Positions 28,820 to 34,937 of a DNA stretch of 37,141 nt are shown one piece after another (the stretch's first letter is position 1; each line of letters starts with the position of its first letter). The notes under the pieces were generated by a model. That model searched no databases. It saw only the letters and a program-made list of their open reading frames with translations, and was not told the origin of the DNA. Source of the stretch: Candidatus Contendibacter sp. (lineage in GTDB: Bacteria; Pseudomonadota; Gammaproteobacteria; Competibacterales; Competibacteraceae); contig JAJHPN010000148.1 in assembly GCA_020890855.1 (NCBI GenBank), forward strand, positions 1-37,141, read 5' to 3'. A program made the position numbers and the translations under genes.

Positions 28820-29440
28820 CTACAGCGTCTCTTCGCCATCAACCAGCGCCAGCGTCCGGATCAGATCCGCAATGGACGACGCCTCCAGTTTTTCCATGAC
28901 GCGCCGTCGGTGAATTTCCACAGTGGAGATGCTGATGTCGAGTTCAGCGGCGATGGTTTTGTTGTACTGACCGTTCGCTACCCGCTCCAGCACTTCCCGC
29001 TCACGGGGCGATAACCGCGCCAACCGCGCCGCCGCGGCATCGCGCTGCGCCTGGCGGCAACGATCCTGGGTATCGAGCGCCAGCGCCTCGCGGACTCGGG
29101 TCAGCAGCAGTTCACCCGGAAAGGGTTTTTCGATGAAATCGAGGGCGCCCGCTTTCATGGCTCTGATCGCCATCGGCACATCGCCGTGGCCGGTCATAAA
29201 AATGATGGGCATCCGATGCCCCTCGGCGCAGAGCTTTTTTTGTAAATCCAGACCGCTCATCTGCGGCATCCGCACATCCAGCACCAGACAACCCGGCCGG
29301 CGAACCGCGTCCGCGGCGAGAAAGTCGGCAGCGCTGGGGAATGCTTCCACCGCCAGCCCACTGGCGCGCAGCAGCAGGCCGACGGCGTCGCGCACCGCCG
29401 GATCATCGTCTACCAGGAACACCGTTGATAACTCACTCAT
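28820..29440 (-). CDS. FixJ-type response regulator
   Basis: The 206-residue product has a receiver domain (D11, D12, phosphoacceptor D55, T83, K105) and a C-terminal LuxR-type helix-turn-helix (about 138-200: LSPREREVLERVANGQYNKTIAAELDISISTVEIHRRRVMEKL), the FixJ/TtrR/NarL-like layout. The start ATG lies inside the end of the kinase gene (ATGAGTGA, 8-base overlap), so the two are translationally coupled. A second possible start is 15 bases upstream (MDVICMSEL). Its targets are unknown; copA and the upstream genes are reasonable guesses. Confidence 0.93.
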   Translation of the reverse strand: MSELSTVFLVDDDPAVRDAVGLLLRASGLAVEAFPSAADFLAADAVRRPGCLVLDVRMPQMSGLDLQKKLCAEGHRMPIIFMTGHGDVPMAIRAMKAGALDFIEKPFPGELLLTRVREALALDTQDRCRQAQRDAAAARLARLSPREREVLERVANGQYNKTIAAELDISISTVEIHRRRVMEKLEASSIADLIRTLALVDGEETL

Positions 29441-30953
29441 GCAAATAACGTCCATAAACTGGCAAGGTGAAATGAAAAGATACCCCGCGATCCGGGTTCG
29501 ACGTCGCCCACAGTTCACCCCCCTGGGATTCAATGATCGAGCGGCTAACCGATAGCCCGAGGCCCATGCCGCCTGGTTTGGTGCTGAAAAACGGCTGAAA
29601 CAGCCGACTGGCCGCTTCGGCGCTGAACCCATATCCGGTATCAGCCAAAGTGACCAGCGCGGTATCGGGATCCTGCAGGGCGGTGCGGATGGTCAGCCGG
29701 CGCGGACCCTCAGCGCCTTGCATCGCTTCAATGGCGTTGCGGGCCAGATAAAGCGTCGCTAACTGAATTTGGATATCGTCACCCAACACGGCGGGCAGAC
29801 TCCCGGTCAGTTCCAGATTCAGCGTCACCTTGGCCTGACGCAGCTCCAGTTGGGCGTAGTGAATCACGGCGCGAAGCAATGTGTTCAGATCGAGCGCTGC
29901 GCGGGCATCTGGATGTTTTTGCACCAAGCCCCGCAGGTGACGAATGATTTCACCGGCGCGCAGCCCCTGATTGACGACGGCGTCCAGGGCGCCAGTCAAG
30001 GCCCGGGGGTCAGTCTGATCCTGGCGCAACAAGGCCAGACCCGCCTGGGTGTAGGCGACAATAGCGGCCAGCGGCTGGTTGAGTTCGTGCGCCAAATTGG
30101 AGGCCAGTTCGACCGCCAGCCGGAGGCGGGCCATCTGGGCCAGCTCCACCTGTTGCCGGCGCAATTGATCCTCGGCCAGTCGATGGGCGGTGATGTCCTC
30201 GGCCAGTCCGGCAATCCGGTAAATGTAGCCGGCCTCGTCGCGGATGGGAAAGCCGCGATCCCGAATCCAGCGGACCGCGCCATCGGGCCGCACAATCCGG
30301 TATTCCTCATCAAGGCAACCCAATTGCCGCCGGGCGACATGCGCGGCGTGAACCCGCTCTCGATCATCGGCATGAACGGCTTCAATCCAGTCCAGCGGCC
30401 GCTCGTGAAATCCCTCCGCCGGTCGTCCCCAAATCTCTTCATAAGCGGGACTGACATAAAGCAGCCGCTCTTCCTCAATGCCGTACACCCAGAACACTTC
30501 CCGAATGTGTTCAGCCAGCTGGCGAAACCGTTCTTCGCTGTCGCGCAGGGCGATCTCCACCTGGGTGCGGGCGGTTACCTGCTGCTCCAGCGTCTGGTTG
30601 ATTGCCAGCAGTTCCGCAGTGCGTTCCCGAAACTGATTTTCCAGCGCGTCGCGGGTGCGCCGCGATTGTCCTTCGATTCGTTCCAGGCGCCGCGCCTGGG
30701 CGTGATGGACGCGGCGCACGATATCCCCATGAACGCGGAGCAGGGCGTAGAGCAGAACGCTGCCGGGAACGATCGCCAGCAGGTCTTTGAGCGTCTTGTC
30801 CAGCGGTGAGGGCGGCGCGCCGCCAGACCAGAAGGCCAGCAACTCGTCAGCGCCGAACAGCCAGAACAGACTGAACAGCAGGTACAGCAGGCTGATCAGC
30901 GCTGGATTGGGAATCACGGCTCGGTCAGCGCGGTGGTCAGCGTTGAGGTCCAT
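29433..30953 (-). CDS. PAS-domain sensor histidine kinase
   Basis: The 506-residue product (from MDLNADHR) has two membrane helices (about 18-34 and 56-73), a coiled coil (about 80-140), one PAS domain (about 140-256; the IEAVHADDRERVHAAH region is of PAS_3 type), a HisKA domain with H289 in NLAHELNQPLAAI and a HATPase domain with DTGYGF and GMGLGLSVSR. The layout is FixL/TtrS-like. I see no obvious haem-ligand FixL motif in the PAS, so the signal is unknown. The start overlaps the end of the small membrane protein gene by 17 bases; the open frame extends further to 31067. No clear ribosome site precedes the ATG. Confidence 0.9.
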   Translation of the reverse strand: MDLNADHRADRAVIPNPALISLLYLLFSLFWLFGADELLAFWSGGAPPSPLDKTLKDLLAIVPGSVLLYALLRVHGDIVRRVHHAQARRLERIEGQSRRTRDALENQFRERTAELLAINQTLEQQVTARTQVEIALRDSEERFRQLAEHIREVFWVYGIEEERLLYVSPAYEEIWGRPAEGFHERPLDWIEAVHADDRERVHAAHVARRQLGCLDEEYRIVRPDGAVRWIRDRGFPIRDEAGYIYRIAGLAEDITAHRLAEDQLRRQQVELAQMARLRLAVELASNLAHELNQPLAAIVAYTQAGLALLRQDQTDPRALTGALDAVVNQGLRAGEIIRHLRGLVQKHPDARAALDLNTLLRAVIHYAQLELRQAKVTLNLELTGSLPAVLGDDIQIQLATLYLARNAIEAMQGAEGPRRLTIRTALQDPDTALVTLADTGYGFSAEAASRLFQPFFSTKPGGMGLGLSVSRSIIESQGGELWATSNPDRGVSFHFTLPVYGRYLHE

Positions 30954-31245
30954 GGTGATGATTGGAAGCGGTTCGACGGGCCGGCGTCCGCTGATCTTCC
31001 AGTAGCGGTTGCGCCGGTTCGACCGTGTAGTCGCCCTCGATAATCCCGGGCGCGGCGCGGCGAGCATGGTTCACGATCCGGCGGTATTGCCACCATAGCC
31101 AGCCGCCCGCCGCCAATCCGGCGATCAGCAGGACGACGAACAGCACCGAAGCCAGGGCGAACCCGGCGACAATCGCCATGGTTGATGTCAGGACCAAGCC
31201 CAGCCGGCCCAGCAGGGAAGTGTTAGGTAACGGCGGCAGCTTCAT
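30937..31245 (-). CDS. Small membrane protein of unknown function
   Basis: The 102-residue product begins MKLPPLPNTSLLGRLGLVL and has one long hydrophobic region (about 18-52, with AAGGWLWWQYRR at its end) that can form one or two membrane helices, followed by a polar Arg/Pro-rich tail. I do not recognise a named family. Its start forms an ATGA overlap with the preceding microprotein gene, and its end overlaps the histidine kinase by 17 bases, so it lies inside the copA-kinase unit and may assist copper export or sensing. That link is inference. Confidence 0.7.
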   Translation of the reverse strand: MKLPPLPNTSLLGRLGLVLTSTMAIVAGFALASVLFVVLLIAGLAAGGWLWWQYRRIVNHARRAAPGIIEGDYTVEPAQPLLEDQRTPARRTASNHHHGPQR

Positions 31246-31322
31246 GGGCGGGGGCTCCAAAACCACCAGACGATCAGGCCAATCAGGCTCAGTCCGGTGA
31301 GATTGACAAGGAGGGTGATCAT
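31242..31322 (-). CDS. 26-residue single-TM microprotein next to copA
   Basis: This is a short open frame, MITLLVNLTGLSLIGL plus IVWWFWSPRP, almost wholly one hydrophobic helix ending in a Trp/Phe patch. An AAGGAA ribosome site sits 6 bases in front of the ATG. It starts 10 bases after copA ends, and its stop shares ATGA with the next gene. The IVWWFW motif recalls the N-terminal membrane anchor I know from cupredoxin-domain proteins near copper ATPases, here without a cupredoxin domain. Its role is unknown. Confidence 0.65.
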   Translation of the reverse strand: MITLLVNLTGLSLIGLIVWWFWSPRP

Positions 31323-31332
31323 GGAAATTTCC

Positions 31333-33600
31333 TTAACGATCATCGTGCGGCGATGGGCGGGCGGTTGTGGGCGGTTGAAACTTGCGCAAGCGGTTAGCGT
31401 TGCTGACCACGGTGAATGAGGACAGCGCCATCGCCGCGCCGGCCAGCATCGGGTTGAGCAGCAGGCCGGTGAGGGGATAGAGCGCACCGGCGGCCAACGG
31501 AATCCCCAGGCTGTTGTAGACGAAGGCTCCGAACAGATTTTGGCGGATGTTGGCGACGGTCGCGCGGGAAATGGCAATGGCGTCGGCAATCCCGTGCAAC
31601 GAATGGCGGGTCAGGGTCAGACCGGCGCTCTCAATCGCAATATCAGTCCCGCCGCCCATCGCAAACCCGGCGTCGGCTTGGGCCAGCGCCGGGGCGTCGT
31701 TGATCCCGTCGCCGACCATGCCCACTACGTCACCCTGCGCCTGCCATTCGGCAATCCGCGCGGCTTTGTCAAGCGGCGTGGCCTCGGCGACCACGTCATC
31801 AATCCCGGCTTGATTGGCAATGGCCCGGGCAGTAGCCGCATGATCGCCAGTCAGCAGCACCAGCCGCAATCCCGATTCTCGCAGCCGGCGTAACGCAGCG
31901 GCGGCATCGGGCCGGATCGGATCGGCGATGGCGATGATCCCGGCCGGCTGGCCGTTGACGGCGATGAGCACCGGTGTTTGTCCGGCGGCGGCGGATTGGA
32001 CGATCCCGGCCTGGAGCGGGGCGGTGTTAATGCCGTGGCTTTCCAGCAAGCGGCGATTGCCCACCAGCAGCGTCTGTCCGGCCAGATGACCCGTCACCCC
32101 CTGTCCGGCGATCGCTTCAAACCGATCCACCGCAGGCAGTTCCAGATGGCGTTGACTGGCGGCATTCAGCATCGCCTGCGCCAACGGATGTTCGGAACCG
32201 GCTTCCAGTCCCGCCGCCCACTGGAACAGTTCATCCTCGGTAAAGCCGGGCAAGGCCATGATCGCGGCGACGGTCGGGCGACCGACGGTGACGGTGCCGG
32301 TCTTGTCCAGCGCCAGCATGGTCAGTTGCCCCGCCCGTTGCAGCGCCGCGCCGTCGCGAATCAGGATGCCGTATTCGGCCGCCTTGCCGACGCCCACCAT
32401 GATCGAAATCGGCGTCGCCAGTCCCAGTGCACAGGGACAGGCGATGATCAGCACGGTCAAGGTGGTGACCAGCATGTAGCTGATTTTGGGTTCTGGGCCG
32501 AGGTTGAACCAGGCCAGCGCGGTCAGCACCGCGATGATCAACACCGTGGGCACAAACACGGCAGCGACCTGATCGGCCAGCCGGCCAATCGGCGGCTTGC
32601 TGTTCTGGGCCTGGCGCACCCGGTCGATGATGTGAGCCAACACCGTATCTGCGCCGACCCGGGTCGCCCGGAACACGAAACTGCCGGTCTGATTCAGACT
32701 GCCGCCAGTCACGGCATCGCCCGGCTGCTTGCTGACCGGCAGCGGTTCGCCGGTGAGCATGGCTTCATCGACCGAGGACGCGCCGCTGACCAGTTCGCCA
32801 TCCACCGGAATTTTCTCGCCGGGCCGCACCCGGATCAGCACGCCGGGTTGCAAGGTTTCAATGAGAACGTCGCGTTCCTGATCGCCGTCCACGATCCGGG
32901 CGGTTTTGGGTTGCAGGCCGATCAGGCGGCGGATCGCAGCGGAGGTTTTGCCCCGCGCCCGGCTTTCCAGCGCCGAACCGAGATTGATCAAGGCGATAAT
33001 CGTGACCGCCGCCTCGAAATAGGCGTGTTGGGCCAGACTCGGTACGCTAGCGGGAAACAGCGCGACCAGCATCGAATAACCCCAGGCGGAACCGGTCCCC
33101 AGCGCGATCAGGGTGTCCATGTTGGCGTGGTGAAGGCGGAATTGTCGCCAGGCGCCGATGAAAAAATGCCCACCGCTGTAGGTCATTACCGCCAGAGTTA
33201 GCAGACCGGTTGCGATCCAGAATCCTTGGCCGGCCAGCGTGGCGAGCGCCGGCAGCCACCCGGCCATTTCCGCAATCATCAGTGGCGCGGCCAGCGCAGC
33301 GGCGACTGCGGTATTGCCGATTAACCGCCGGTCATGCGCTCGTTCCGCCGCGTCGCGTTCAGCCTCCTCGCCGGCATCGTCGCGCAAGGCGACAGCGGTG
33401 TAACCCGCCGCCTGCACAGCGTGAATCAGCGCATCAAGCGTAGCGGAACCCACTACTTGGGCGGTGCGATCAGCGAAATTGACGCCAGCGTCCACCACGC
33501 CGGACGTTTCGCGCAAGGCGGTTTCGACCGCAGCGACACAGCCGGCGCAACTCATTCCGGTAATCGCTAGCCGCTGGCGGTTGGAGGGGGCAGCGCTCAT
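31333..33600 (-). CDS. copA: Copper-translocating P1B-type ATPase
   Basis: Exports Cu+ across the inner membrane. The 755-residue product has one N-terminal heavy-metal-associated domain (GMSCAGC, C18 and C21), TGEP at 283-286, the ion-binding CPC motif at 388-390, phosphorylation D432 in [13 protein letters not shown] (nucleotide domain), and [10 protein letters not shown]. The last two helices carry YNSLG and MALSSF, the Cu+-specific signatures (N, Y, M, SS). I chose the ATG of [10 protein letters not shown] because GGAG precedes it; the frame is open upstream to 33654. It follows hemL by 53 bases and is followed by the microprotein. It could be CopA or a CcoI/FixI-type assembly ATPase; one N-terminal domain leaves both open. 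Confidence 0.94.
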
Positions 33601-33653
33601 CGTTGAGGTTCTCCAGGTCAAGGATGGTCGGGGATTAGGCAACGGCTGACCCA

Positions 33654-34937
33654 TTAAATCCGGGCCAATACCCGCTGCGCGGCGTAGAGGGTCGCTGCGA
33701 TCTCGACCTCGGTATGCGCCGCCGACATGAAACCGGCCTCGAACGCGGATGGCGCCAGGTAGACGCCTTCGGCCAGCATCCCGTGAAAGAAGCGCTTGAA
33801 CCGCTCGACATCACAGGCGATGGCCTGAGCATAAGTCGTCACCACCGGTGCGTCGGTGAAGAAGAACCCGAACATCCCGCCGACCGCATGGGTGGTCAGT
33901 GGGATGCCGGCGGCATGAGCGGCGTTCGCCAGACCGGCGCATAACTGGCTGGTTTTGGCGGCGAGATCGGCGTGAAAACCGGGGACAGCGAGCAATTCCA
34001 ACGTGGCCAGCCCAGCGGCCATCGCCACCGGATTGCCCGACAACGTCCCAGCCTGATAGATCGGTCCCAGCGGCGCGAGTTGCTCCATGATCGCTCGCCG
34101 CCCGCCAAAAGCGCCGACCGGCATTCCTCCGCCGATGATCTTGCCCAGCGTGGTCAGGTCGGGTTTGACGTCGTACAGCGCTTGCGCCCCACCCAGCGCA
34201 ACCCGGAAACCGGTCATCACTTCATCAAAAATCAGCAGGCTGCCGGCCTGATCGCAGCATTCACGCAACCCGGCCAGAAAACCGGGCAGCGGGGGAATGC
34301 AGTTCATGTTGCCGGCGACCGGTTCAACGATGATCGCGGCGATGTCGTTCCCCATCGCGGCGAACGCCTGTTGAACCTGCGGCAAGTCGTTATAGGTCAG
34401 GGTGATGGTGTGCGCCGCCAAGGCGGCTGGAACGCCTGGCGAGGTCGGAATGCCGAGGGTGAGCGCCCCGGAACCGGCCTTGACCAGCAGCGAATCGGAA
34501 TGACCGTGATAACAGCCCTCGAACTTGATGATTTTGTCGCGCCCGGTGACGCCCCGCGCTAGCCGGATCGCGCTCATGGTTGCTTCGGTGCCGGAGTTGC
34601 ACAGCCGCACCCGCTCCATGGTGGGCATCCATTCGCCAATCCGGCGAGCCATGACGGTTTCCAGCGCGGTCGGCGCGCCAAAGCTCAAGCCGTTGATCGC
34701 CGCATTCTGGACCGCGCTGATCACCGCCGGATGAGCGTGACCGGCGATCATCGGTCCCCACGAGCCGACGTAGTCAATGTAGCGGCGGTCGTCCTCGTCA
34801 TAGAGATAAGCGCCAGCGCCGCGTTTGAAGAAGATCGGCGTTCCGCCCACCCCGCGAAAGGCGCGCACCGGCGAGTTGACCCCACCGGGAAGATAGCGCT
34901 GGGCTTCGGCAAACAATTGTTCAGAACGGGTGGTCAT
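33654..34937 (-). CDS. hemL: Glutamate-1-semialdehyde 2,1-aminomutase
   Basis: PLP enzyme converting glutamate 1-semialdehyde to 5-aminolevulinate, the haem precursor. The 427-residue product is of usual length. [10 protein letters not shown] near the start, [26 protein letters not shown] and the PLP lysine K266 in [17 protein letters not shown] are visible. Its ATG overlaps the thiE stop by four bases (ATGA), as often seen in thiD-thiE-hemL units. Confidence 0.97.

Follow-up and report, generated by a model that had tools for sequence, protein, structure and literature searches.

A short frame follows copA

The window, a stretch of 37,141 nucleotides from Candidatus Contendibacter sp., carries on its minus strand a copA gene, behind it a frame of 26 codons encoding MITLLVNLTGLSLIGLIVWWFWSPRP*, and then a gene for a 102-aa membrane protein (Table 1). 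The copA stop codon TAA (31335–31333) is separated by 10 nt from the ATG of the short frame (31322–31320). The sequence-only reading of this DNA had described a frame with its own AAGGAA ribosome site, placed 10 bases after copA and sharing an ATGA with a membrane-protein gene. Both positions were confirmed in the sequence, and the ribosome site is present, 6 nt before the ATG. The 26-aa protein matched no Pfam or NCBIfam model, a comparison that is hard for very short queries, and an Rfam search of the region returned nothing.

Table 1. Features around the short frame, with their positions in the window.
Feature	Position	Strand	Basis and remarks
copA, Cu(I)-exporting P1B ATPase with one HMA domain	31333..33654	-	Pfam and NCBIfam matches; the true start may lie slightly downstream of 33654
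AAGGAA ribosome-binding site, 6 nt 5' of the microprotein ATG	31329..31334	-	Sequence
Single-helix microprotein (probable bare CupA-type anchor), 26 aa	31242..31322	-	Translation; found in 27 of 37 family genomes; pN/pS 0.30
ATGA overlap of the microprotein stop and the start of the next gene	31242..31245	-	Sequence; the -4 overlap recurs in 30 Competibacteraceae loci
102-aa membrane protein, translationally coupled to the microprotein	30937..31245	-	Behind the microprotein in Competibacteraceae only

The 102-aa membrane protein matched no family in Pfam or NCBIfam. Its gene was present in all 30 Competibacteraceae loci examined, always with the 4-nt overlap. Further downstream, on the same strand as copA (28820–31067), are genes for a histidine kinase with a PAS domain and for a LuxR-type response regulator.

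The microprotein is conserved and under selection

A similarity search was performed on 59 genomes, 37 of which belong to the family of the window, Candidatus Competibacteraceae. The microprotein was found in 27 of these 37, each copy being a closed frame of 26–27 aa that begins with ATG. The first reading had judged such a frame unlikely to arise by chance, and the conserved length, start and stop bear this out. It had also named conservation in relatives, which the frame survived, and the ratio of synonymous to non-synonymous change as checks. In 30 Competibacteraceae loci pN/pS was 0.30 in the coding frame and 0.95 and 2.07 in the two other frames. As LI[VI]WWFW had served as a search pattern in part of the later sampling, the ratio was recomputed outside the LIVWWFW motif, giving 0.43 for 28 Competibacteraceae loci obtained by whole-genome similarity searches only and 0.39 for 27 Halomonadaceae loci. 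Inside the motif, the values were 0.07 in Competibacteraceae and 0.02 in Halomonadaceae, the latter being biased by the search pattern. These ratios show purifying selection on the encoded protein, and the 26-aa frame is almost certainly a real gene whose product is selected.

The presence of the microprotein closely followed that of the pump. Wherever a family genome encoded a full-length CopA of the window's type, the microprotein was present too (23 of 23 genomes, each searched for both), and none of the 10 family genomes lacking it had a complete CopA of this type: nine carried other P1B pumps only or gave no match, and in the tenth (G029) CopA was cut at a contig end. In genome G020, the microprotein was kept with copA on another contig, and loci L166, L170 and L183 are further cases in which the two are separated. 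Survival of the gene unlinked to copA makes action as a protein likelier than action as a cis element.

Several of these loci had further peculiarities. In L170 and L183 (genomes G364 and G267, of one family), the bare form stands directly before an RNase D-like gene; copA is 538 nt away in L183 and is not found nearby in L170, so that the peptide can persist away from the pump. Genome G003 has two copies of the microprotein gene (L003 on C104 and L031 on C69), both at contig starts, and its copA ends at another contig edge, which represents either a duplication or an assembly break at the junction.

The microprotein matches the anchor of CupA-type proteins

The sequence-only reading missed one relationship: the microprotein appears to be a homologue of the membrane anchor that CupA-type copper chaperones carry. 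In other lineages this anchor is fused to a cupredoxin domain and encoded at the same operon position. The head of this fused form matched the Pfam family Cupredoxin_1 (PF13473), and the fused form matched pneumococcal CupA (PDB 2mry/4f2e) with E=1e-21. The CupA copper ligands, a first Cys and C-x-M-x-M, are kept in 52 of 54 fused forms, which public records annotate as 'cupredoxin domain-containing protein'. Mean pairwise identity within the fused proteins was 58% in the anchor, 48% in the head and 26% in the linker. The anchor is thus more conserved than the copper-binding head, unlike what would be expected of a mere tether.

Bare and fused anchors have in common the pattern N-x-x-G-x-x-L-I-x-x-I-[VI]-W-W-F-W. 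The window microprotein was matched by the anchor profile, aligned with the fused forms and with the CupA-like protein of Lactococcus, and, as in CupA operons, its gene adjoins that of a Cu(I) ATPase. Its frame stops after 26 aa, leaving no cupredoxin-like head with Cys and C-x-M-x-M. No cupredoxin remnant was found downstream of the Competibacteraceae copies, and no Cupredoxin_1 domain was found in the whole genome of the window organism. On a comparison of about 21 aligned residues together with synteny, the microprotein very probably belongs to the same family as the CupA-like anchor. Lacking the head, it is not a CupA; the best reading of its sequence is a CupA-type anchor alone, or 'headless CupA'.

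A match of about 21 residues in a hydrophobic helix could also be produced by convergence, in which a transmembrane microprotein of separate origin resembles the CupA anchor by chance. However, the position after copA, the 4-nt overlap and the residue pattern are all common to bare and fused forms, and the evolutionary results given below count further against this explanation, which we regard as improbable.

Bare and fused anchors occur behind copA across Gammaproteobacteria

A profile search with the peptide gave matches in 84 of 369 class-wide genomes, some of the weakest of which are chance matches; a pattern scan of named genomes yielded 279 relatives, of which 80 were kept. Two architectures were found. 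In the first, the peptide stands alone (22–41 aa); this form occurs in Competibacteraceae, in Halomonadaceae (Halomonas, Vreelandella, Billgrantia, Modicisalibacter and Salinicola) and in many other families of Gammaproteobacteria, and every bare form has one uncharged hydrophobic stretch. In the second, found in Alcanivorax, Alloalcanivorax, Marinobacterium, Pseudohongiella, Ferrimonas, Mariprofundus and others, the peptide forms the N-terminal part of a larger protein (about 117–125 aa). Among 153 distinct loci with copA, the anchor gene lies at most 70 nt from copA in all but three, and it overlaps the copA stop by 4 nt in 101. No bare form was present among the plasmid records searched.

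In a phylum-wide sample of 398 genomes, the additional carriers were confined to Gammaproteobacteria and one family of another class. A protein of the CupA-like family from a Lactococcus cop operon has the anchor MSQIIVLIVGLVLIVFIAWWFF, which matches, so that the motif extends beyond Gram-negative bacteria. The forms of Hymenobacter and Shewanella agree with the anchor motif as well.

Two loci of unusual appearance were also inspected. Behind copA on a Methylocystis rosea plasmid (L204, 2757–3818), a 353-aa frame encodes a signal peptide and tetratricopeptide repeats followed by a CupA-like anchor and head. In genome G118, an open frame of 877 aa was considered as a candidate CopA–anchor fusion but proved to be a fused gene of the usual kind, 120 aa long and following copA (L139).

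This distribution bears on the translational coupling that the first reading had pointed out. Coupling to the downstream membrane protein is true in Competibacteraceae but restricted to that family; elsewhere, the gene downstream of the anchor varies by lineage and is often uncoupled. ATGA-type coupling to the 102-aa gene therefore cannot be the general function of the anchor. The 4-nt overlaps on both sides of the frame in Competibacteraceae would suit a translational coupler or leader, which passes ribosomes from copA to the downstream gene and in which the peptide itself is irrelevant. Nevertheless, selection acts on the amino acids and not on an open frame alone, the downstream gene is not constant, and fusion to a copper domain in other lineages would be unexpected of a coupler. 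We consider this the least probable of the explanations weighed here.

The head has changed more often than the anchor on the CopA tree

CopA itself was searched, to avoid selecting loci by the peptide, and the regions behind high-scoring CopA genes with no clear match in the first round were inspected, which added six divergent anchors. The resulting 85 CopA loci comprised 41 with a bare anchor, 25 with anchor and head, and 19 with neither; the anchor was thus present in 66. As 19 of these comparable loci have none, the anchor is not strictly needed by CopA. On the tree of the 85 loci, the presence of the head changed at least 14 times and that of the anchor six times; deep branches of this tree are weakly supported, horizontal transfer would alter the counts, and much of the sequence material comes from metagenome assemblies. 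A topology uniting all bare anchors in one clade was rejected (p-AU 8e-6).

Two sister pairs of bare and fused forms are fully supported on the CopA tree, which argues against separate origins. One locus, L147, whose sister L160 is fused, has an intact 30-aa anchor and, about 60 bp further on, the frameshifted sequence FICQMQMYRGSLIVH, in which the last part of a CupA-like head can be recognised. Decay of the head next to an anchor that is still intact indicates that, at least in L147, the head was lost and the anchor was kept, and it largely excludes convergence. The direction of change is seen for L147 only, and bare anchors may have gained heads elsewhere.

Head loss of this kind means that some bare anchors arose from fused genes, as would be the case if the microprotein were a functionless remnant of a CupA gene, still made but drifting. 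This explanation is improbable, since pN/pS of bare anchors is 0.24–0.30 in two families where the bare form is both ancient and universal, the frames are closed and nearly constant in length, and the anchor is retained apart from copA in G020, L166, L170 and L183.

A different lesion was found in L151 (G386:C2:124400-132400, reverse strand), where a TGA stands at the first copper-ligand Cys, with an intact anchor before it and the rest of the head frame intact. Selenocysteine at this position was considered but not supported, as neither a tRNA-Sec (ARAGORN, hits examined) nor a SelB over the cut-off was found; the TGA is probably a nonsense mutation. The number of metal-binding domains in CopA offered no usable contrast with which to explain head loss, since one N-terminal CxxC is present in nearly all loci of all three states. 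Halomonadaceae CopA has two or three.

Predicted topology and role at CopA

The distribution of charges around the aromatic motif was examined. In 98 bare anchors, there was no Lys or Arg before the motif and an average of 1.1 after it, and fused forms had 2.6 in the 15 residues that follow it. By the positive-inside rule, this pattern places the N-terminus outside and the C-terminus in the cytoplasm, which is the most likely orientation of the anchor helix. CopA structures put the entry of Cu(I) at the cytoplasmic interface. The anchor helix would most likely pack against the membrane-spanning part of CopA and place WWFW at the cytoplasmic face near the Cu(I) entry. In the fused state, the helix would keep the CupA chaperone head at the entry site; in the bare state, it would still stabilise or tune the pump, and the HMA domain or soluble chaperones would supply Cu(I). 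The predicted topology fits the function of CupA, which takes up copper on the cytoplasmic side and passes it to CopA (PMC5646241, PMC7558416).

The sequence-only reading had raised the frame as a possible modulator of CopA. Almost strict linkage of the anchor gene to copA, the overlap of the two in many loci and their co-occurrence speak for a role at CopA, while we infer the topology, the binding to CopA and the effect on the pump from sequence. In our favoured reading, to which we assign a probability of roughly 0.6, the microprotein is a CupA-type anchor without its head that serves as a small helical partner stabilising or tuning CopA; that it contacts CopA at all is marginally more probable than the reading as a whole.

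The main competitor is a small membrane protein with a partner other than CopA, for example another copper protein or the FtsH protease, which would make it comparable to MgtR, MgtU or MgtS. Proteins of 28–31 aa do act on Mg2+ P-type ATPases via FtsH (PMC10710835), and in Competibacteraceae a conserved membrane protein is encoded alongside. On the other hand, CopA is the sole constant neighbour across the class, and the fused CupA form suggests copper delivery to CopA. We consider another partner unlikely, yet more plausible than a remnant, a coupler or convergence.

Implications and comparison with known systems

P1B copper pumps are usually described as single polypeptides, and a conserved helical partner, if true, would call for changes in the purification, modelling and assay of CopA. 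More broadly, and as a tentative proposal to which we give somewhat less than even odds, most Gammaproteobacteria CopA pumps may have an overlooked single-helix subunit, with CupA-type chaperones consisting of this subunit and an optional copper-binding head; many times over, the chaperone would have been built on the subunit or reduced to it. The first reading had called the frame too short for the usual gene callers, and rightly so; being below their size limit, the anchor family may well lack annotation in many copper operons. Our search, which covered open-access literature, found no description of a CopA-linked microprotein of this kind.

CupA of Streptococcus pneumoniae is a membrane-anchored Cu(I) chaperone (PDB 4f2e, 2mry) whose membrane leader, at the N-terminus, is about 22 aa long (PMC5646241), and a 2020 review confined CupA to a few streptococci (PMC7558416). 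Like the window gene, it is encoded with copA; fused relatives of the microprotein have the CupA domain and its ligands, and the matching anchor of the Lactococcus cop-operon homologue ends in WWFF. In contrast, the window protein is headless, without the Cys, the Met pair or other CupA copper ligands. Deletion of the leader raises the copper sensitivity of S. pneumoniae, and the interaction of the leader with CopA was called speculative (PMC5646241). Bare anchors provide a natural separation experiment for CupA and imply that the membrane leader is more than a tether, a role that the pneumococcal work left as speculation (PMC5646241). That a CupA-type anchor exists without a head suggests a working partnership between the anchor itself and the pump.

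Among other P-type ATPases, KdpF, an accessory subunit of KdpFABC, is likewise a small single-helix protein (29–30 aa) encoded with its ATPase (PMC10654040; PMC3618439). Its ATPase is of class P1A, however, and no sequence relation to the microprotein was found; the association of KdpF with its ATPase is known structurally, whereas that of the microprotein with CopA is predicted. MgtR, MgtU and MgtS are also single helices of 28–31 aa with a P-type ATPase partner (PMC10710835), but they control transporter turnover via FtsH, or act on another transporter, and none of them is known to occur as the anchoring part of a larger chaperone. In common with this class of accessory proteins, the microprotein family has about 20–40 aa and a single predicted helix, is encoded with the ATPase and is present when the ATPase is (23 of 23 family genomes; 66 of 85 loci). 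The microprotein is thus similar, in size and setting, to the small accessory proteins known from other P-type ATPases.
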